A stretch of 58,223 bases of DNA from Armatimonadota bacterium (GTDB lineage: Bacteria > Armatimonadota > Zipacnadia > UBA1398 > JAKPQA01), in contig JAKPQA010000270.1 of the NCBI GenBank assembly GCA_029547025.1, positions 1-58,223 of the forward strand, read 5' to 3'. The notes beneath the pieces are model-generated. The model worked only from the letters and a program-made list of their open reading frames with translations, was not told the origin of the DNA and made no database searches. The position numbers and the translations under genes were made by a program. Below are positions 142 through 40,603 of the stretch, one piece after another (the first letter of the stretch is position 1; each line of letters starts with the position of its first letter).

Positions 142-3100
142 CTACCCCTCCCAGTCGAACTGCACAAGCTCGACCGGGGCCAGGGCGAACCTCACGCGCT
201 CGTTGCTCTTGCCGGAGTACCCCCCCCAGCCAACACTGATGGCCCCGATCTGGTCGAGGTCCAGTCGGCCGTTGTTGTCCTTCGCCCACCCAGCCAGCGA
301 GAAGCCCTCGAACCAGACAAGCGACTCCTGCCAGCCCGGCTCCGATAGCGTGCGCCCCGCGGGCGCCAGATAGACCGCCCCGCCCCTCTCGTGCAGGAGC
401 ACCAGCAGCGCGGCGCCACAAGCGCCCTGGCCCTCGGGCACGTAGGTGCAGACCCTCACCGCGTCGAGACCCCGGAGGTCGGTCCCGGCCGGGAGCCGCG
501 CGCTGGCGATGCAGTGGCTGTCGGTACGGCCCTGCTGGATCGTGGCATCGATGAGGACGGTGCCCGGCCGGTCGCCGCCCATGACTGCCGGCGCCATTGT
601 GATCGAGCGCGTGACGTGCTCGGCGCCCGCCGCCTCGAACCGCACTTCGGCGCCGACGGCCTGCGAGAGCGGCGTCGAGCTGACCACCGCCTCAAGCGCC
701 CCCTGCGTTTCCCGCCTCGCCCGCGCCACGGCTCGGGGGAAGACGACGAAGGTAGCCCCATAGGGCTCCAGGGAGACCGACACGGACCGTCCGCCATCGG
801 CCTCAGAGGTCTCCGCAGCCGTCACCGTGCCCGTCGCCGGATCCCACAACTCGGCCTCACCGTCGGCCGCGAATGTGCAGCGGGCCCTTACGGCACTTGC
901 CGAGTCGTTGATCACGTAGTAGACCTCGCGCCCGTCGATGCTCCAGTGAGCATAGCGAAGCGCGCCGGAAGCATCGCCCGCGGAGAAGTCGCGCGCGAGA
1001 AGTCGATCGAGCAGCCGCGGCACCGCGGGGAGCAGCGCCTCGGGTACGAATGCGGCTACCCCGCCTGCCGCGTTGCCATGGGACACGATCGCTGGGCCTT
1101 CACCCGGGTCGTCGCGGTCCGCGAGGCCGAGCATACGGGCCGATAGCGCCCCAACGCGCGTATCACGCAGGCTCTGCGTGCTGTTCGCCGGGATGTCCCC
1201 GGCGCAGAGGACGATCCCGCCTCGGTCCCAGAACTCGCTGAGTCGCTGCCAGGCCTCGGTCGGAATCGTGTCGGTGGCGGCGAGCACCACCGCGCGGAAC
1301 CGCAACGGACCGGCCACGAGGACGCCGTCTTCGATTCCCGCTCCCGCAATGGCATGTGACGGGACCACCTCGAAGTCCCGCTGGCCACGGAAGAGCACGT
1401 TCTGGCATTCCTGCCACACGCGGTCGATGCGGTGCACCTTCGGCGAACGCGTGGCGCCGAGAGTCGCGGGTGTCATGTGAGCCCACACGCTCTCGATGGG
1501 GTACAGCACCGCCACATCAGTGATGGGCCGGCCGCCGGTGAGCATGGTGCCGCAGCGCCCGACGAACTCGCTGATGCGGCGCATCTGCGCTGTATCGAGA
1601 CCGGCCCACGAGTAGTCGGAGTTCGTCGTGTTCACGCCAGCGACATAGAGGCGGTTGCAGGTCCCCACGATGTCCGAAACTCCGACGGGCTCGATGGGGC
1701 TGGTGTTCCCTGCAGGCCGGTAGACCTGCGCGAAGTCCGATGTCTCCGACATGACGACGGGAGCGCCGTGCAGGTGCGCCACCGAGCCGAGCAGCTTCGC
1801 GATATGCCATGGCACGTTCGGCGGCGACGAAGTCAGGCAGTCAATGCCCGGATAGTCCAGCCGCTCGGCGCAGCGGTAGAGGTCGCCATAGAGGGCGCAG
1901 TGGCTGGCAATGCTCTCCTCCCACAGCAGGTGCCCGCCCGAGGGCAGGCCCACCTTGTGGCACCACTCCTGAATCTGCCCGAAGAACGAGTCGGCGACCC
2001 GCTGGGCGACATGGTCCCAGAAGTCGCACCGCGCCCGGTGGCCACCGGACCCGGCATCGGCGACCAAGGCCGGCAGCCACGGCAACAGGTCATAGCCCTT
2101 GGCGCGCTCAAAGGTCTCCGCGAAATCATCCGCCCACGGCACCGCCGCCCACTGCTGCTCCTTCAGGAACAACGACATCAGCGACGGCTCATCGGTGAAG
2201 GTCGCCACAAACAGGTCCTTGAGCTCCGGCAGGCGCCTCAGATACTCCTCGTGGGTCAGCTCGATGAAGCGCTTTACCGGGCGCGGATCCATGATGTTGA
2301 TATAGGGCTGCGCTCGAAACGCGTTCGAAACCGCGTGGGTGCCCTCGTGCAGGACGTTCTCGGCGAACACGAACACGTGCCACTCGCCAGCTGGCGGTGC
2401 CCAGCGAAGCGCGCCGTCGCGGATCGATCTCGACAGGTCAGTGGGGTCTTCGGCATCGATCCGCCCTGCCTCGACCGGACACGCCACCGCGAGCCGCACC
2501 TGGCCGGGTGGCAGGGGGAGATCGACGGTCTTGCCGTTGGTGGTCGTCTCGGCAATGTGCAGTCCCTTGGCCTGCCACTCGGGGTGCTCCTTGAGCACCA
2601 GGCCGCCGGCATTGCCGCTGGGGTATCCTTCCTCGTCGTAGAGCCACAGGGCCATGCCCAGTCTGTGGGCCAGCCGTGCGCCGTGGACGAAGGAGTCCCA
2701 CAACGCGTCGCTCTGCAGATACTGGTCGAAGGCGACGTGGCAGACCACGCCGCCGAAGCCCTGTTCGAGCAGCGTCGTGAAGAACGTCTCGTGCTGGGCC
2801 GGGTCGGCCGGCAGGCTGTGCACGATCTTGAGGATTCGCCGGTCGGCCGGCGGGTTGGCGAACCGCTCGCGGAGCCCTGCGCCCGATGGCTTCATGGGCA
2901 GGACCGGCCTCTCGACATACTCCGCGGGGAGAAGTGACACCGGGCCATGGCGGGTACCTTCCGGGCCGCCATGCGTGGTTCCATGATCCCCCGAGAGGCC
3001 CGGCACTCCCAGGACCCGCCACACCGAGTCGTCGACGTCCGGCTCCGCCCACCCGCCCTTCCCACACGTCCGCGCGAGGTCGGTGGAGACCCGCCACTCG

Positions 3101-3216
3101 CTTTCGAGGTTGCCGCCCGCAAGCGCCAGCTCTCGAACTCCGGGTTGACCCGGGCACGCCGCAGCCCACACGCACACCATGGCCGTGGCGACGATGCAAG
3201 TGCTACGGTCCGGCAT
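142..3216 (-). CDS. Secreted GH106-like glycoside hydrolase (alpha-L-rhamnosidase-like)
   Basis: This 1024-residue protein has a signal peptide (CIVATAMVCVWAAACPG) and a large catalytic region. WLYDEEGYPSGNAGG lies near residue 191, FTDEPS near 340 and GHLLWEES near 428; these motifs resemble the TIM-barrel family related to GH106 rhamnosidases. The C-terminal third looks like beta-sandwich or galactose-binding-like modules. The ATG at 3216 is preferred over an upstream TTG at 3240 because an AAGGGG-type ribosome site sits about 9 nt upstream and the signal peptide starts there. It is probably exported and removes terminal deoxysugars from plant-type or algal polysaccharides. The exact substrate cannot be read from sequence. 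The gene follows the esterase gene in the same direction. Confidence 0.7.
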   Translation of the reverse strand: MPDRSTCIVATAMVCVWAAACPGQPGVRELALAGGNLESEWRVSTDLARTCGKGGWAEPDVDDSVWRVLGVPGLSGDHGTTHGGPEGTRHGPVSLLPAEYVERPVLPMKPSGAGLRERFANPPADRRILKIVHSLPADPAQHETFFTTLLEQGFGGVVCHVAFDQYLQSDALWDSFVHGARLAHRLGMALWLYDEEGYPSGNAGGLVLKEHPEWQAKGLHIAETTTNGKTVDLPLPPGQVRLAVACPVEAGRIDAEDPTDLSRSIRDGALRWAPPAGEWHVFVFAENVLHEGTHAVSNAFRAQPYINIMDPRPVKRFIELTHEEYLRRLPELKDLFVATFTDEPSLMSLFLKEQQWAAVPWADDFAETFERAKGYDLLPWLPALVADAGSGGHRARCDFWDHVAQRVADSFFGQIQEWCHKVGLPSGGHLLWEESIASHCALYGDLYRCAERLDYPGIDCLTSSPPNVPWHIAKLLGSVAHLHGAPVVMSETSDFAQVYRPAGNTSPIEPVGVSDIVGTCNRLYVAGVNTTNSDYSWAGLDTAQMRRISEFVGRCGTMLTGGRPITDVAVLYPIESVWAHMTPATLGATRSPKVHRIDRVWQECQNVLFRGQRDFEVVPSHAIAGAGIEDGVLVAGPLRFRAVVLAATDTIPTEAWQRLSEFWDRGGIVLCAGDIPANSTQSLRDTRVGALSARMLGLADRDDPGEGPAIVSHGNAAGGVAAFVPEALLPAVPRLLDRLLARDFSAGDASGALRYAHWSIDGREVYYVINDSASAVRARCTFAADGEAELWDPATGTVTAAETSEADGGRSVSVSLEPYGATFVVFPRAVARARRETQGALEAVVSSTPLSQAVGAEVRFEAAGAEHVTRSITMAPAVMGGDRPGTVLIDATIQQGRTDSHCIASARLPAGTDLRGLDAVRVCTYVPEGQGACGAALLVLLHERGGAVYLAPAGRTLSEPGWQESLVWFEGFSLAGWAKDNNGRLDLDQIGAISVGWGGYSGKSNERVRFALAPVELVQFDWEG

Positions 3217-3299
3217 CGAGATCGCCCCTTCCACTCCCAATCGGGACGTCGGCCGGCGACAGGCGTTTCACTCGCGTGACCGTGGGTCCCGCCGACGCG

Positions 3300-5411
3300 C
3301 TACCATGCCGCGGAGACGGCCTCGGCCACGGCGGCTCCGCCGTCGGCCCCGCAGACCACCGTGGCGCCCCCCGCGATAGCCTCGGCGTACAGCGCGGCGG
3401 CCTCGGCCTGCGGCACGGGCGACCTCATGCTGTCCAGCAGGTTGGCGAGGATGCACTCGCACCCGCGCAGGGCCGCCACCACCTCGGGGAGGTCATAGTG
3501 CTTCAGCACACCGGGGATCATCAGGCTCTCACGCCAGGCGAAGGCGCCGTTCCTCGTGTACGAGCCGTAGTCCGACAGGCCCTCGAGGCAGATCAGGCGC
3601 TTCACCTCGGGCCTCAGTAGCGCCACGTGCAGCGCCACGACCGCTCCGATGCCCCGGCCGCCGACCATCAGACGGTCGGGATCCACGTCTGGCCGGTCCC
3701 GGAGTTCAGCGAACGCACACAGCGCGTCGCGAACGCGCAACCCCATGATCGGCCGAGCGTTGGCGATGGAGAGGTAGGTGAGGATGCGCTCGATGTCGTT
3801 CCACCCGGCCAGGTCGTACGCCGTGGGCTCCGGGCTCAGACTGCCCAGCCCGGCGACGTCGATGCTCAGAATGCGCGGCTGCTCCGGCGAACAGCTGGCC
3901 TCGAACATGCGCAGGGGCCTTGCGAGGAACCCGTCGTGCCGGAAGGCCGCCCACTTCCCCTGGTCGTCGATCCACAGCAGACCCGGCCGCGGCGATCGGT
4001 CCTCGACATGCGTGAACAGCACGCCGGGAACGTATCCGTCCGTGCCCCTGAGCGGCCGAATGCCGATCTCCCCCACCAGCGCATGCCAGCTGGTCTGGGG
4101 GTCGGATAGCCGGATGACGGCATGCGGCCGGGCATCCGGGTCCACCGCGAGCAGCCGCCGGGCCGCTGCGCGCATGCGCCCGAGTCGGCCGTCGCGCGGA
4201 GCACGCTGCCGCAGGGCCAGAAGGCGTTCGGCTTCGGCCCGGTTGATGGTGGCCATGTTCACGGCGGTGCTCGGGTGGCACATCAGGTTGGCGGGGTCGG
4301 TCAGAGGCACCTCGTCAGCCGTGAGCGGCAGCGCGTCGGCATCGATGCCCTTCAGCGCCCGGTTCATCCACCGGACAACCTCGTTGGCCATGGCCACCGT
4401 GTAGGCATGACCCGATTCCTGGTCGACGAACAGCCCGAAGTCACCCTTCGCATCGGCCGCCTCGTAGATGGCCTCGACATCATCGGCCACCTGTAGGACA
4501 GCCTCGTGCTTGAACACCTCGTCACCACGCCCCGAGACAATCAGGAGCGGCTTTGGCACCAGGGCCCCGAGGTAGTCCGCGAAGTCAACCATGCCCGAGA
4601 TGTACCCCGGCCCGAACTGCTCGGGGCAGCTCGTGTAGAGCCCATCCAGGTGGAGGGTCTCGTGGGTGGAGACGCAGCACACCGGGGCCACGAACCGGAC
4701 ACGCTCGTCGAGCATGGCAGTGAAGATGCTGGTCAGCCCGCCACCCGAGACGCCCGTCACCGCGAAACCGAGGCCGGCGTCCACATCGGGGCGCGTCGAC
4801 AGGTAGTCCATGCAGGCGATCGCGTCGGCCACGAAGTGCGTCTGCGACCAGAAGCCCGTGAGGTAGCCCAGGAACCCGTGAGTGAAGTGGTCGTTCCCGG
4901 GGCCCAGCTCGCCCGCGCAGCCCGGCGGATCGAAGGAGATGGCCACATAGCCGTTTCGAGCGAACACCTGAGCCGGCTGCTGGTAGCTCGGCCCCGTCTT
5001 GCTGCTGTGGCCGGTGGGGCACACCACGCCTGGATAGACCCCCGGCTCCCTCGGGAGGTAGACGCTCCCGTTAACTTCCCAACCGGGCAGCGACTCGAAC
5101 AGCACATTCTCGATGCGGTAGGTGTCGAACTCGTGCCGAGATACGACGCGAGCCTTCAGGTCACGCCCCCGCGCGAAGAGCACGGCGGGGAAGGGTTCCC
5201 GCACGACGCCAAGAACGCGCGCGCGCCATTCCTGCCAGTCGCGCTCCGGCACCAGCCGCCGGGCCGACGCGCCTGCCTCGAGGGCCTCGCGGCAGTCACC
5301 AACAACCTGCTCCTGCAGCCAGATCTCGGGCCGATAGGGAACCCGGTCACCGCGGCCGACGACACACGTGGCCAGCCCGAGTGCACTCATGGCTGTTAAC
5401 ATCGTGGCCAT
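3300..5411 (-). CDS. Tandem alpha/beta-hydrolase (acetyl-xylan-esterase/dienelactone-hydrolase-like), second domain degenerate
   Basis: This 703-residue protein has an N-terminal hydrophobic segment that may act as a signal peptide. The first alpha/beta-hydrolase domain (about 95-355) has a nucleophile elbow GVSGGG with Ser222, a candidate acid Asp297 (GRGDEV) and a candidate His335 (ESGHAY). This resembles the acetyl-xylan esterase and Abhydrolase_7 type of carbohydrate esterase. A second hydrolase-like domain follows (about 430-700). Its elbow reads GGRGIGA near 584-590, so the nucleophile position holds Arg and it is probably catalytically dead. The ATG at 5411 has GGAG 5 nt upstream. It likely removes ester decorations from glycans, alongside the downstream GH106-like enzyme. 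Confidence 0.7.
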   Translation of the reverse strand: MATMLTAMSALGLATCVVGRGDRVPYRPEIWLQEQVVGDCREALEAGASARRLVPERDWQEWRARVLGVVREPFPAVLFARGRDLKARVVSRHEFDTYRIENVLFESLPGWEVNGSVYLPREPGVYPGVVCPTGHSSKTGPSYQQPAQVFARNGYVAISFDPPGCAGELGPGNDHFTHGFLGYLTGFWSQTHFVADAIACMDYLSTRPDVDAGLGFAVTGVSGGGLTSIFTAMLDERVRFVAPVCCVSTHETLHLDGLYTSCPEQFGPGYISGMVDFADYLGALVPKPLLIVSGRGDEVFKHEAVLQVADDVEAIYEAADAKGDFGLFVDQESGHAYTVAMANEVVRWMNRALKGIDADALPLTADEVPLTDPANLMCHPSTAVNMATINRAEAERLLALRQRAPRDGRLGRMRAAARRLLAVDPDARPHAVIRLSDPQTSWHALVGEIGIRPLRGTDGYVPGVLFTHVEDRSPRPGLLWIDDQGKWAAFRHDGFLARPLRMFEASCSPEQPRILSIDVAGLGSLSPEPTAYDLAGWNDIERILTYLSIANARPIMGLRVRDALCAFAELRDRPDVDPDRLMVGGRGIGAVVALHVALLRPEVKRLICLEGLSDYGSYTRNGAFAWRESLMIPGVLKHYDLPEVVAALRGCECILANLLDSMRSPVPQAEAAALYAEAIAGGATVVCGADGGAAVAEAVSAAW

Positions 5412-36700: not shown

Positions 36701-36967
36701 ACGACCACCCCCACGTCGCGTTCGGCCATCACCTGCCAAGTACCTTCTGCCCGAGCCCCGTACGGTAGGGGATGCCTACGGTGGCCAACGATGGCAACAC
36801 GGCGGAGGGGGCTCGGCCAGGCAGCAACTCGATCTCGGGGTTCAGTGCGGTAACCCGGACCTCCTCTTCTAGCTTCTGGTTTCTGAGTTCCTCCGGTACC
36901 GCTGCCGTTCGACCTGCGCTTGACGCCATTCCTGCGAGACGTCAGCATTCGGCGAGTTCGTCGACTG

Positions 36968-37747
36968 ATGGCGCACGAGGCGCGAGAGTCGGGGTGTGTG
37001 GGTGTGGCAGGCGAGTTCCGCACGGCTGACTGGGACCAGTACCGCATGGACTACGGCGATCCGCACAGGGTTGTGGAGCCGCTGGAACGTGAGGTCGCCG
37101 TGGTTGGCGACGCGCTCGAGGCGCTGCGGGCCGCCGGTGCCATCCCACACACGGAGTATGACACTGCCCGGTTCCTGGCTCATCGCGAAGCCGTGGCGCG
37201 TGAGTTCGAAATACCTTGGACGGCCATCTCGCCCCGGATGCAGCGCCTGCTCTATGCCCTCAACGCCATCAGCCAACCCCGCGTGATGGTCGCTGCCGGG
37301 GTGTTCTGCGGGAACACGTTCATCTCCAATGCCGGGGCCGGCGTTGGGCCGGGAGCGTGCTACCAGGCCCATGCGCTCATCGGTGTCGAGATCAAGCCGG
37401 ATGAGGCCGCGCGCGCCGAGCGCAACGTCCGCCGGATCGACCCCACCGGCATCGCCAGAGTGCTCGCCGCCGACGCGCTGGACGTGGTCGCGAAGCTCGA
37501 GGAGCCCATCGACCTGCTCTACCTCGACGCCGATGGGCACAGGGGTCAAGGGAAGGGCATCTATCTCGAGATCCTGCTGGCTGCGCTCAGCAAGATGCCG
37601 GCCGGTTCACTGGTGCTCGCGCACAACAGCGTCAACGGCGGCGATCCTGTGCAGCCATACCTCGACTATGTCCGCAACCCGGCCAACTGCCGCGCCAGCC
37701 TCAACGTCATCTTGGACCCGGAGGGCCTGGAGGTAACGGTGCTGTGA
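36968..37747 (+). CDS. Class I SAM-dependent methyltransferase-like protein next to the RiPP genes
   Basis: This protein of about 259 residues (start uncertain; a TTG at 36920 is possible) has a Rossmann pattern: VMVAAGVFCGNTFISNAG near 107-124 in the SAM-binding position, HALIGVEIKPDEAARAERN for the acidic ribose-binding strand, and IDLLYLDADGHRGQGKGIYLEILLAAL. The latter resembles O-methyltransferases that use an Asp-metal site. The glycine motif is unusual. The gene converges on the first precursor peptide gene, 10 nt apart. A role in methylating the peptide is possible but unsupported beyond location. Confidence 0.55.
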   Translation: MAHEARESGCVGVAGEFRTADWDQYRMDYGDPHRVVEPLEREVAVVGDALEALRAAGAIPHTEYDTARFLAHREAVAREFEIPWTAISPRMQRLLYALNAISQPRVMVAAGVFCGNTFISNAGAGVGPGACYQAHALIGVEIKPDEAARAERNVRRIDPTGIARVLAADALDVVAKLEEPIDLLYLDADGHRGQGKGIYLEILLAALSKMPAGSLVLAHNSVNGGDPVQPYLDYVRNPANCRASLNVILDPEGLEVTVL

Positions 37748-37757
37748 TGCGGATGAG

Positions 37758-37997
37758 CTAGTAGTTGGCGTAATCCGCGTAGTTGGCGTAGTCGGGGTAG
37801 TTGGCATAGTTCGGGTAGTCCGCGTAGTAGCCCCCCAGGCATCCGGACAGCACGCCGGCACCGGCGACCAGTCCGGCCCCCAGCGCCGCCCTTGCCGCGT
37901 GGCTCAGGAATGCCCGTCTACAGATCGGGCTGAGCGCCTCCGCTGGTTGGGGGAGCCCCTCTTGTGGCGCCGCGACTCCAGGCCTCGCCTCGGCCAT
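37758..37997 (-). CDS. RiPP precursor candidate 1: Tat/lipobox leader and Tyr-x-Asn/Asp repeat core
   Basis: A 79-residue peptide. Residues 22-31 read LSPICRRAFL with Arg27-Arg28 as a twin-arginine signal. A hydrophobic stretch follows, then LSGC at 50-53, a good lipobox with Cys53. The core 54-79 consists of seven consecutive triplets starting at Tyr58: YAD, YPN, YAN, YPD, YAN, YAD, YAN, closing with Tyr79. Leader positions match precursor 2 exactly. Three-residue aromatic-x-Asn/Asp motifs are the known substrates of cyclophane-forming radical SAM/SPASM enzymes. The radical SAM gene lies upstream on the same strand. A weak GGAGAGG precedes the ATG. An unmodified surface lipoprotein is the alternative. 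Confidence 0.65.
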   Translation of the reverse strand: MAEARPGVAAPQEGLPQPAEALSPICRRAFLSHAARAALGAGLVAGAGVLSGCLGGYYADYPNYANYPDYANYADYANY

Positions 37998-38184
37998 CGC
38001 CGTTCATCCTCTCCCGGGGCAGCCAGCACAGTCCGCGGCGTCGGGATCTGCCGACGAACCCCTCCGTAACTCCACCAATTCTACACAGGAATGTCGCCGA
38101 TGGTTCCCGATTCCGCTATGCAGAGTGCATCCGCGGAAGTCGTCGAGGACCTCAGGACATGTCCTGCCCCCGGGCACTCCGGCC

Positions 38185-38490
38185 TCAGTAGTAGTTCGCG
38201 TAGTCCGCGTAGTTGGCGTAGTCGCCATAGTTCGCGTAGTTGCCGTAGTCACCGTAGTTGTAGTAGTCCCCATAGCCGCCATGGTCACCATAGTCGCCGT
38301 AACCAAAGTCGACATAGCCATACAGCCCCAGACAACCCGACAGGGTTGCCGCCCCAGCGACCACGCCGGTGCCGATAGCTGCTTTGGCGATCCGGCCAAG
38401 GAACGCCCGTCGGCAAATGGGGCTCAGCCCAGCCATCTCCGGATCTCGTGCCCCCTCAACCGATCGGGCTGGTTCGCGCTCGTCTGCCAT
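38185..38490 (-). CDS. RiPP precursor candidate 2: same leader, longer Tyr/Gly/Asp/Asn core
   Basis: A 101-residue peptide with the leader of precursor 1: LSPICRRAFL at 22-31, Arg27-Arg28, and LSGC ending at Cys53, at identical positions. The 48-residue core holds about twelve aromatic-x-Asp/Asn triplets (YVD, three YGD, YYN, YGD, YGN, YAN, YGD, YAN, YAD, YAN) and ends YY. The final triplets YAN, YAD, YAN are shared with precursor 1, suggesting duplication and repeat expansion. Glycine in the middle position of the N-terminal triplets recalls Gly-rich GRRM-type substrates. The ATG at 38490 is chosen because the leader then aligns. The gene starts 77 nt after the maturase partner. Confidence 0.65.
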   Translation of the reverse strand: MADEREPARSVEGARDPEMAGLSPICRRAFLGRIAKAAIGTGVVAGAATLSGCLGLYGYVDFGYGDYGDHGGYGDYYNYGDYGNYANYGDYANYADYANYY

Positions 38491-38567
38491 CGCTGCCCAC
38501 TCCCTCCACCGCGTGCGCTCTCCCAACTCGCAGTCGATATGCCCTCGGAGCGGATTCCCCTCCACGC

Positions 38568-39446
38568 CTACGACGTGCCGCGGCCGCATGGCGTTCCCAT
38601 GGGGTTTGTACTGCTGGTGGCCGACGCTCCGGCCTCGCGCGCCATCTTCGCCAGATGGGCCATCAGGCCCCGCCACACCTCGCAGCGCTCGTGGTCCTCA
38701 AGGCCGGGTGCAACCCAGAAGCCGCCACACCAAGGGAACGCCGCACAGAAGGCGCACTCTGCGCGCGTTCGGAACAGCGCACGCCGGTAGCCTTCGAGCT
38801 CGCGCCACAGTGCCGAGCCGCGCCAGCCTTCCAAGCCCTCACCACCAGCGCCGAACCACCGCTCGCGGCGGTCGAAACGGGCCGACAGTGTCGCCAAACC
38901 CTGAACGGAGATATAGATATTCCTTCCCACCACGGCCTCCTCGGCGTGCCATAGGTCACATGGCCAGCCGCCGGACACCGCCTGCGCCAGCGAGTGCCAC
39001 GGTTCCACGGGCGACTCGAGAGTCGGGCAGGTGATGTAGAAGTCCAGTGCCGCCGCCAGGTCGGGTCCCGGCCACAGGTCTAGGTCCGCGAGCCGGGCCG
39101 GAACACCCGCCTCACCGCAAGCCCGGAGACGCTCGAGCGCACTTTGGCCCGGCGGGATCTCGGCCGATGCGCACTCCCCCCGCGCCAGCACGGCAGTGGG
39201 GAGCGCGGCCGGTGGACCGGTGAGCGCCCGGATCGACAGGTCGCCCGGGTATTCCCGCAACGCGGGTCCCCATGGTGCGTCCTCGGGAAGGCTGACCCGC
39301 ACCGCGCGACCGACCTCCAGCGATGACAGCCAGTCCGCCGCGGCAAGCTCCGTCTCGGCCATCTCCAGCACAGCGCGGCTACCTTCCGGCAGTCCGAACC
39401 ACTCGCCCGGCAAGTCCACTAACGCTGTGGCGCGCCCCTCGCTCAC
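38568..39446 (-). CDS. SPASM-like partner protein without the radical SAM cluster motif
   Basis: A 292-residue cytoplasmic protein. The GTG start at 39446 overlaps the radical SAM stop codon (GTGA) and has GGAGG 7 nt upstream, so translation is coupled. It has no CxxxCxxC. The N-terminal two thirds may be a degenerate half-barrel. The C terminus has a Cys-rich SPASM-like end (CAFCAAFPWCGGFW, then ERCEVWRGL), typical of auxiliary cluster regions. Other SPASM-only partner proteins are known in peptide-modifying systems (GeoRSP type). A role as a recognition or electron-transfer partner of the maturase is inferred. No RRE-like domain was identified by eye. Confidence 0.55.
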   Translation of the reverse strand: MSEGRATALVDLPGEWFGLPEGSRAVLEMAETELAAADWLSSLEVGRAVRVSLPEDAPWGPALREYPGDLSIRALTGPPAALPTAVLARGECASAEIPPGQSALERLRACGEAGVPARLADLDLWPGPDLAAALDFYITCPTLESPVEPWHSLAQAVSGGWPCDLWHAEEAVVGRNIYISVQGLATLSARFDRRERWFGAGGEGLEGWRGSALWRELEGYRRALFRTRAECAFCAAFPWCGGFWVAPGLEDHERCEVWRGLMAHLAKMAREAGASATSSTNPMGTPCGRGTS

Positions 39447-40603
39447 TCGGCCGCCTCCTCGCACGACGACTCGCCGCTCGGTGCGACCAGTGCCGGCGGC
39501 CCGAGCAGCTCGCGCAGCCGCCCGAACAGGCGCTTCCTCGCCGCGCAGAAACCGGTCTCTCGTGTTAGGTCTCCATAGGCGATCAGTCCGTCGTTGGGGC
39601 AGCCCCCCCCGCAGAGCGCCCACCACTCGCAGTCCTGACACGGGCCGTGCAGAAGTCCCTCAGCCCGTCCGACCATCATGCTTCGCGCACGGCTCGCCAG
39701 GATGCTACCCAGCGGCTCTTCAAACAGGTTGCCAAACCGCCCTACCCCGCTGTCGATGCACCGACCGCAGCCGTAGACCGACCCATCCGGAGTGACGCCC
39801 AGATGGCTGTCCGAGCATCGCCCGCTGCAGTCGCAACACAGCCGCGACCGCTGCCCGCGCCAGGCTTCCCACCACTCGGCGAGCGGCGCCACCCGCGCGC
39901 GGCATCCATCTTCCCGCCATGCATCCAGGAGTTCCACCAGAAACTCGCCGTACTCGTCCGCCGTGAGCCCCAACGCGCCGTCAGCCGGGGCCGCCGCCCT
40001 CCCCTGAGCGTAGAGTGGGTTGAAGCGCGTCGATGCCCCGGGATCCCAGTTGCGGAAGTATCGATAGATCCTCGCGGCGTGGCCCAGGCTCTCCCGGTGG
40101 ACCACGTAGACCACGCCGTACCGGATGCCCGACCGCCGCAGGAGCTCGGTCGCCTCGAGCCAGCGCTCGTCGTAATCCACGCCGTCCCTCAGCCCGCGCC
40201 AGCCTGGAACCGGGTCGAACGACGTGCCCACGCGCGACCGCCCGAGCAGCTCGCGGAGCAGAGGGATCCACTCCGGCGTCAGCAGCGACAGGTTCGTCTG
40301 GATCGAGTTCGTGACCCGGTTCGCGTTGGCGCCGAACGCCTCGCGCTGCGCCTCGAGCACATGCCAGTAGAACGCTGGGCCCATGAGCATGGGCTCGCCG
40401 CCGTGCCAGAGGAAGTTCAGCCCATCGCCCCGCGCGGCACACAGCCACTCGGCGAAGGCGCCAAAGAGCGCAGGGAGTTGGTCAACACGCATGGGCGATG
40501 AGGTCTTGCCCGAATCCGCCGAGCAGTACCGGCACGTACCGTTGCAGGCATTCGTCGGCTTCACCACCACCAGCACTGGGCCGACACCTCCCTGTTCGCG
40601 CAT
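39443..40603 (-). CDS. Radical SAM/SPASM peptide maturase candidate (GrrM/anSME-like)
   Basis: This 386-residue protein has the cluster motif C20-x3-C24-x2-C27 (CNGTCRYC) and FLWHGGEPMLM near 64-74. IQTNLSLL follows, then a long SPASM region with CCDCSGRC, YGCGRC, CQDCEWWALCGGGC and a final GFCAARK. The layout matches enzymes that modify peptides or sulfatases. It starts a four-gene leftward set: maturase, partner, precursor 2, precursor 1. The triplet-repeat peptides suggest cyclophane formation. The alternative is an anaerobic sulfatase maturase, since two Cys-type sulfatases lie 6 and 13 kb away. The ribosome site is weak. Confidence 0.75.
   Translation of the reverse strand: MREQGGVGPVLVVVKPTNACNGTCRYCSADSGKTSSPMRVDQLPALFGAFAEWLCAARGDGLNFLWHGGEPMLMGPAFYWHVLEAQREAFGANANRVTNSIQTNLSLLTPEWIPLLRELLGRSRVGTSFDPVPGWRGLRDGVDYDERWLEATELLRRSGIRYGVVYVVHRESLGHAARIYRYFRNWDPGASTRFNPLYAQGRAAAPADGALGLTADEYGEFLVELLDAWREDGCRARVAPLAEWWEAWRGQRSRLCCDCSGRCSDSHLGVTPDGSVYGCGRCIDSGVGRFGNLFEEPLGSILASRARSMMVGRAEGLLHGPCQDCEWWALCGGGCPNDGLIAYGDLTRETGFCAARKRLFGRLRELLGPPALVAPSGESSCEEAAE

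Follow-up and report, generated by a model that had tools for sequence, protein, structure and literature searches.

A radical-SAM/SPASM enzyme pair encoded beside Tat-signal tyrosine-repeat proteins: a probable RiPP-type cluster with predicted cyclophane cores in an Armatimonadota bacterium

The window, a 58,223-nucleotide stretch of an Armatimonadota bacterium (contig JAKPQA010000270.1), carries on its minus strand, at 37758-40603, a cluster of four genes, hereafter labelled maturase, partner, precursor 1 and precursor 2. The maturase is a radical S-adenosylmethionine (SAM) enzyme with a SPASM domain, and both precursors are small proteins ending in runs of Tyr-x-Asp/Asn triplets. The recurring association of these genes makes it well supported that this is a cluster of the ribosomally synthesized and post-translationally modified peptide (RiPP) type. 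On balance, we lean towards a reading in which the enzyme pair modifies repeat proteins exported by the twin-arginine translocation (Tat) pathway, with Tyr(i)-X(i+2) cyclophanes as the most likely predicted modification; a ladder of such rings is our best guess at the chemistry. The genes follow the leftward order given by the initial annotation, with these features:

39443..40603, minus strand: radical-SAM/SPASM maturase, 386 residues, with SAM-cluster motif CNGTCRYC, HGGEP and eight SPASM cysteines
38568..39446, minus strand: partner protein, 292 residues, GTG start, overlapping the maturase gene by 4 bp
38682..38756, minus strand: four-cysteine segment of the partner, C-x2-C-x5-C-x14-C, from alignments
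38185..38490, minus strand: precursor 1, 101 residues, ATG at 38490 with GGAGGGAG about 10 bases upstream
38332..38412, minus strand: twin-arginine/lipoprotein-type signal of precursor 1, RRAFLG...LSGC, residues 27-53, from the sequence
38188..38322, minus strand: repeat core of precursor 1, residues 57-101, 12 Tyr-x-[Asp/Asn] triplets
37758..37997, minus strand: precursor 2, 79 residues
37839..37919, minus strand: twin-arginine/lipoprotein-type signal of precursor 2, RRAFLS...LSGC, residues 27-53, from the sequence and automatic detection
37761..37829, minus strand: repeat core of precursor 2, residues 57-79, 7 Tyr-x-[Asp/Asn] triplets, reaching the C-terminus

The triplet counts of 12 and 7 agree with the initial annotation, which had put them at about twelve and seven. 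Shuffled cores average 4.2 and 2.6 triplets, and none of 2,000 shuffles reaches either observed count. A search of the 6.3-Mb genome for three Tyr-x-Asp/Asn codon triplets in succession gives 12 matches, every one of them inside the two precursor genes, and a reversed control pattern gives 0 matches. The nine-base units are nearly all mutually different (11 of 12 in precursor 1, 6 of 7 in precursor 2) and the period-9 DNA arrays match at only 68-76%, so the regularity is kept at the protein level and not at the DNA level. Codon diversity, shuffles and genome-wide pattern counts together rule out a DNA microsatellite or chance as the origin of the repeats.

Upstream of the core, residues 27-53 of both precursors read, by inspection, as a twin-arginine signal with a lipobox: RRAFL, a hydrophobic stretch and LSGC. 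The small repeat peptides of the initial annotation are thus real, but the signal had been overlooked, and what was called the leader is an export signal (CRRAFL...LSGC). On this consensus-level reading, the window precursors would be Tat-exported lipoproteins. Partner searches of 291 genomes of the window's phylum returned one clear relative, G001, from the same order and a different family, in which a maturase of 54% identity, two Tat-lipoprotein Tyr-repeat precursors and a partner all lie together. The phylum gave one further partner hit, in G124 (E 7.7e-4, with internal stops), which was weak and was set aside. LSPxxRRAFL and LSGC align across the four precursors of the window and G001. 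The leader LSPxxRRAFL is kept between the two genomes while linker and core diverge, the conserved-leader, variable-core pattern of RiPPs; in the G001 precursors the linker is a long Pro/Ala/Lys stretch and the core reads Tyr-x-Glu/Asp.

The family extends well beyond this phylum. A single-protein scan of the genome contig collection with the window maturase gave no matches. A scan of the same collection for the Tyr-x-Asp/Asn codon pattern gave at least 120 loci; among the matches listed, only the deltaproteobacterial L156, L045 and L090 are family members, and many others are simple-repeat open reading frames (ORFs). Enzyme searches starting from the deltaproteobacterial members added G307, G345, G351, G651 and G389, together with a second G293 locus that carries the window's own three-part gene set; a G410 match is a truncated contig. 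The full set stands at one locus in deltaproteobacterial G291, G292, G293, G307, G345, G351 and G651, and G389 has two Tat-lipoprotein-type Tyr-rich precursors on a contig separate from the enzyme. In the phylum of G293, searching 331 genomes for the partner returned only G293 itself. Altogether, 10 genomes with a Tyr-type enzyme carry 15 precursors with a Tat signal and a Tyr repeat. An RR-containing Tat-like signal is present in all 15, ending in a lipobox-like Cys in some and in an AxA-type site in others, and TatC scores above cut-off in 10 of the 10 member genomes.

A single rule, requiring RR together with a Tyr-rich stretch, found precursors at 11 of 13 member loci and at none of 34 control radical-SAM loci, although most controls came with only some 1.5 kb of flanking sequence and were shorter than many member loci, a difference that somewhat favours the contrast. 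Within the window the rule caught only precursor 2, as the mechanical ORF of precursor 1 begins too far upstream. Because most loci were reached through the enzyme, finding the precursors is an independent test, and it shows that a small precursor gene is conserved next to the modifying enzyme, as in RiPP clusters. The initial annotation had proposed looking for the leader and triplet core next to homologous maturases, and they are there; it had also named homologous maturases without such peptides as a sign against it, and this sign appears in part, in G389 with its precursors elsewhere and in three distant relatives.

These three distant loci (G1078, G605 and G679) were reached by searching the class of G292 with the partner. 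G1078 encodes a maturase, a partner and a Tat-signal peptide with an (RRC)n core in mixed codons; G605 encodes a maturase, a partner and Tat-signal peptides with RC/WRC runs. The Arg-Cys Tat-signal peptides lie at L223:4661-4960 (plus strand) and at L224:2435-2710 and 3007-3333 (plus strand), and the mixed codons of L223 indicate that its (RRC)n is not a plain microsatellite. The G679 locus (L222:3926-7874, minus strand) holds a maturase, a partner and a 689-residue protein with two radical-SAM-like halves; a repeat peptide was sought nearby and none was found. The wider family is therefore not tied to Tyr chemistry: its constant theme is a Tat signal, a short-period repeat and the enzyme pair, with Tyr chemistry confined to part of the family.

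The prediction of Tyr(i)-X(i+2) rings comes from a position rule in the Tyr-type cores. Across the 15 cores, D, N, E, R, K or S make up 274 of 303 non-Tyr residues (90%) at the second position after Tyr, compared with 139 of 294 (47%) at the first. A restricted i+2 next to a free i+1 is what would be expected if a Tyr(i)-X(i+2) crosslink forms. The favoured letter at i+2 varies by genome: Asp/Asn in the window, Asn in G291 and G292, Arg/Asn in G307, Ser in G351 and Asn/Lys/Ala in G651. The precursors also contain the aromatic-x-X3 motifs of triceptides, with a beta-carbon hydrogen on X3.

In the mechanism that we propose, the maturase and a degenerate SPASM partner would modify the Tyr-x-X3 tails of both small proteins in the cytoplasm, where a C-C bond would join each Tyr ring to the beta-carbon of the residue two places on, making three-residue cyclophanes. 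The bonded X3 would be Asp or Asn in the window and Asn, Asp, Glu, Arg, Lys or Ser in relatives. Successive cyclophanes would form a stiff rod, and the modified proteins would exit folded through the general Tat pathway, to be cleaved before the lipobox Cys and then probably lipid-anchored at the cell envelope, where they would act. The window cluster has no transporter or protease genes, an absence for which Tat export and lipid anchoring would account.

Several points weigh against this proposal. The maturase scores far below the cut-off of every characterised cyclophane family (AmcB 97 against 425, GrrM/OscB 73 against 310, YhhB 63 against 445, FxsB 48 against 370, XyeB 26 against 450), which rules out these named families as its identity and means that the chemistry cannot be read from a family name. 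The Tat/lipobox assignment is a consensus-level reading of the signal, and the lipobox is missing in some relatives. G389 cores are rich in Tyr runs, with Tyr-x-[DNE] not above chance; duplication within cores inflates both the repeat counts and the position counts; and two of the distant relatives bear Arg-Cys repeats.

An alternative that keeps the enzyme pair and its substrates, and changes the reaction, is less probable though far from negligible: the pair might form Tyr-Tyr or Tyr-O crosslinks, alter Asp/Asn at the beta- or alpha-carbon, dehydrogenate or epimerise. The chemistry of SPASM enzymes is diverse, and TvgB converts a repeated TVGG core to poly-cyclopropylglycine (PMC9062424). 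Tyr itself occupies i+2 in 75 cases across the cores, and relatives have Cys cores. Against this, the polar-only i+2 with a variable i+1 fits three-residue cyclophanes, and cyclophanes of both kinds, Tyr-Asp and Tyr-Arg, are known: PMC11002830 reports a C3(Tyr)-Cbeta(Arg) crosslink for YhhB and a C3(Tyr)-Cbeta(Asp) crosslink for YxdB.

The repeat proteins could instead be unmodified Tyr-rich surface lipoproteins, with some other substrate for the radical-SAM pair. Tyr/Asp-rich low-complexity surface proteins do exist, and the modification itself is only predicted, yet we regard this as improbable, given that maturase, partner and precursor recur jointly across distant lineages and gene orders, that the 0 of 34 control loci stand opposite, and that where the repeat becomes Arg-Cys the enzymes still adjoin a Tat-signal repeat peptide.

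The maturase retains the full cysteine complement of a SPASM radical-SAM enzyme, CxxxCxxC and all SPASM cysteines (C257, C263, C279, C322, C325, C331, C335 and C353), invariant or nearly so across the family, and matches Pfam Radical_SAM (3e-13) and SPASM (3e-6) above cut-off. Its AlphaFold2 model (mean predicted local distance difference test score, pLDDT, 84) has as top PDB folds anSMEcpe (E 1e-21) and ChlB (1e-16), the latter a radical-SAM enzyme whose structure includes the precursor leader. The two best NCBIfam scores fall short of their cut-offs: 152.8 bits against 450 for DynA (NF041298) and 147.6 against 349.45 for the sulfatase maturase model TIGR03942. A maximum-likelihood tree places the 12 Tyr-type enzymes on the same side of a branch (support 100/98) that sets them apart from sulfatase maturases; with the distant relatives added, the partner-bearing enzymes stand together (100/97), and a single Tyr-type clade is not clearly recovered (30% of bootstrap trees). 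That the window enzyme is an anaerobic sulfatase maturase lying beside repeat proteins by chance, as the second-best NCBIfam and best PDB matches might suggest, has a vanishingly small probability and is ruled out by a score far under that of five true members from this genome and phylum (398-445 bits), by Gly (CGR) after the third SPASM Cys in nearly all family members where sulfatase maturases have the catalytic Asp (CDF/CDH/CDM), and by the tree, with HGGEP in place of QGGEP as a further difference. Membership of that clade had been put forward in the initial annotation as an outcome that would speak against it; the enzyme falls outside. The same genome holds a true anaerobic sulfatase maturase as an internal contrast (G000:C110:10645-11742, TIGR03942 398 bits).

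The partner, which the initial annotation had recognised as coupled to the maturase, is probably a degenerate radical-SAM/SPASM protein that keeps one four-cysteine cluster site, a nature that had gone unnoticed. It lacks CxxxCxxC, and four C-terminal cysteines are invariant (C231, C234, C240 and C255), which we take to be the second SPASM auxiliary-cluster (Aux II) site from the anSMEcpe structure. Against NCBIfam and Pfam it had no match at E up to 1, including the GeoRSP SPASM partner and other named partner families. A partner profile aligns with the part of the maturase that runs from around [VI][DE]PFHS to the end of SPASM (probability 82%, E 1e-5). The AlphaFold2 model has modest confidence (pLDDT 63), and the SPASM radical-SAM enzymes that lead its PDB matches are below significance (E 0.013), so the assignment comes mainly from the profile comparison and the cysteine pattern. 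Partner homologues accompany the maturases of other member genomes, and the protein may relay electrons or hold the substrate.

As in the triceptide systems (XyeB/XncB, GrrM/OscB, FxsB, YhhB, YxdB), a SPASM enzyme here sits beside a small aromatic-x-X3 precursor, but the window adds a Tat-signal leader and a degenerate SPASM partner, and its maturase is below the cut-offs of all matching NCBIfam models. The initial annotation, which had invoked XyeB, GrrM and FxsB and proposed a candidate new RiPP system, holds in that the radical-SAM/repeat-peptide system is conserved, fits no NCBIfam or Pfam model (the precursors matched none above cut-off) and has cores of the triceptide aromatic-x-X3 form; the link to those three families does not extend to their cut-offs, and ring formation, like closure of every triplet, is a prediction. 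The reported Tyr-Asp crosslink of YxdB (PMC11002830) is a precedent by chemistry. A further claim, that the cores are far denser than in described triceptides, is doubtful, since repeating Tyr-Asn-Arg-x-(His-Asn-Arg)2 precursors are described (PMC9062424), as is the Tyr-Asp cyclophane of YxdB (PMC11002830). These H(Y)NR repeat clusters and TvgA/TvgB (PMC9062424) also involve radical-SAM modification of short tandem-repeat cores, and differ from the window in motif, accessory enzymes and export. Among the dynobactin and darobactin maturases (DynA, DarE), DynA gives the window enzyme its best NCBIfam score, whereas the window precursors are long Tat-signal repeat proteins. Anaerobic sulfatase maturases share the overall fold and cluster ligands. 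TIGR04133 (rSAM_w_lipo) is, by its model name, a radical-SAM/SPASM protein paired with a lipoprotein, like the window, but the G001 maturase reaches 33 bits against a cut-off of 425.

The system seems to represent a family of modified surface peptides not described before, YxdB being compared by description only. A literature search covering few subscription journals, and so weak evidence of novelty, found radical-SAM/SPASM together with a twin-arginine/Tat signal, or with heptosyltransferase, in no paper. More tentatively, the family may represent a widespread undescribed peptide class in which the enzyme pair would crosslink a repeat of short period, Tyr-x-X3 or, in a sister branch, Arg-Cys, to give one continuous rod while still in the cytoplasm. 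Being rigid already, this rod would need Tat, and it would end as a permanent surface-anchored structure, not a released natural product. If the proposal is true, radical-SAM peptide crosslinking would be joined to Tat export and envelope anchoring, and a natural series in which one enzyme family acts on differing repeats (Tyr-Asp, Tyr-Asn, Tyr-Arg, Tyr-Ser, Arg-Cys) would offer a test of what determines the reaction, and might also provide a genetically encoded means of making stiff peptide rods with dense crosslinks.

Around the window cluster, a promoter or terminator consensus was sought and none was found. A Methyltransf_24-type gene at 36920-37747 (plus strand) points toward precursor 2 and ends about 10 bases from its stop codon; nothing at that gene indicates membership in the cluster. 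Among the codon-pattern loci, Tyr-Ser-Asp style repeats are apparent simple-repeat ORFs in Prevotella-type genomes (L054, L076, L099, L130 and other pattern loci), a caution for codon-pattern mining of repeat precursors. A Mesorhizobium loti ORF (L065:5573-5794, minus strand) has His runs around a Tyr-x-Asp stretch (HHHHHHGYYEDYSDYSDYPDYPDYWWHHHHHHH), and its genome had no match to a deltaproteobacterial maturase at E 1e-10.

Most deltaproteobacterial clusters carry a second radical-SAM gene, and several of their maturases bear a fused glycosyltransferase-9-like domain (Pfam Glyco_transf_9, 4e-5); both are absent from the window cluster and thus are not needed for core function. The second gene has CVRSCPYCFA or CNRNCPYCFA (L156:1667-2665, with equivalents in L173, L176, L177, L179, L180 and L181), and in NCBIfam it comes closest to viperin, with 41 bits, far under cut-off. 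The glycosyltransferase-9-like domain, which has Cys residues near its C-terminus and may glycosylate the repeat protein, is fused to or beside the maturase at L156:3350-5563, L173:4880-6988, L176:5696-7792 and L177:5499-7601, and stands as a separate gene at L179:8548-9438. At L175:3932-4654 (plus strand), beside an open-ended radical-SAM ORF that runs to the contig end, lies a precursor of Tat-lipoprotein type in which a Cys-rich segment, present in two copies, comes after a long Tyr-Ser-Asp/Glu run.

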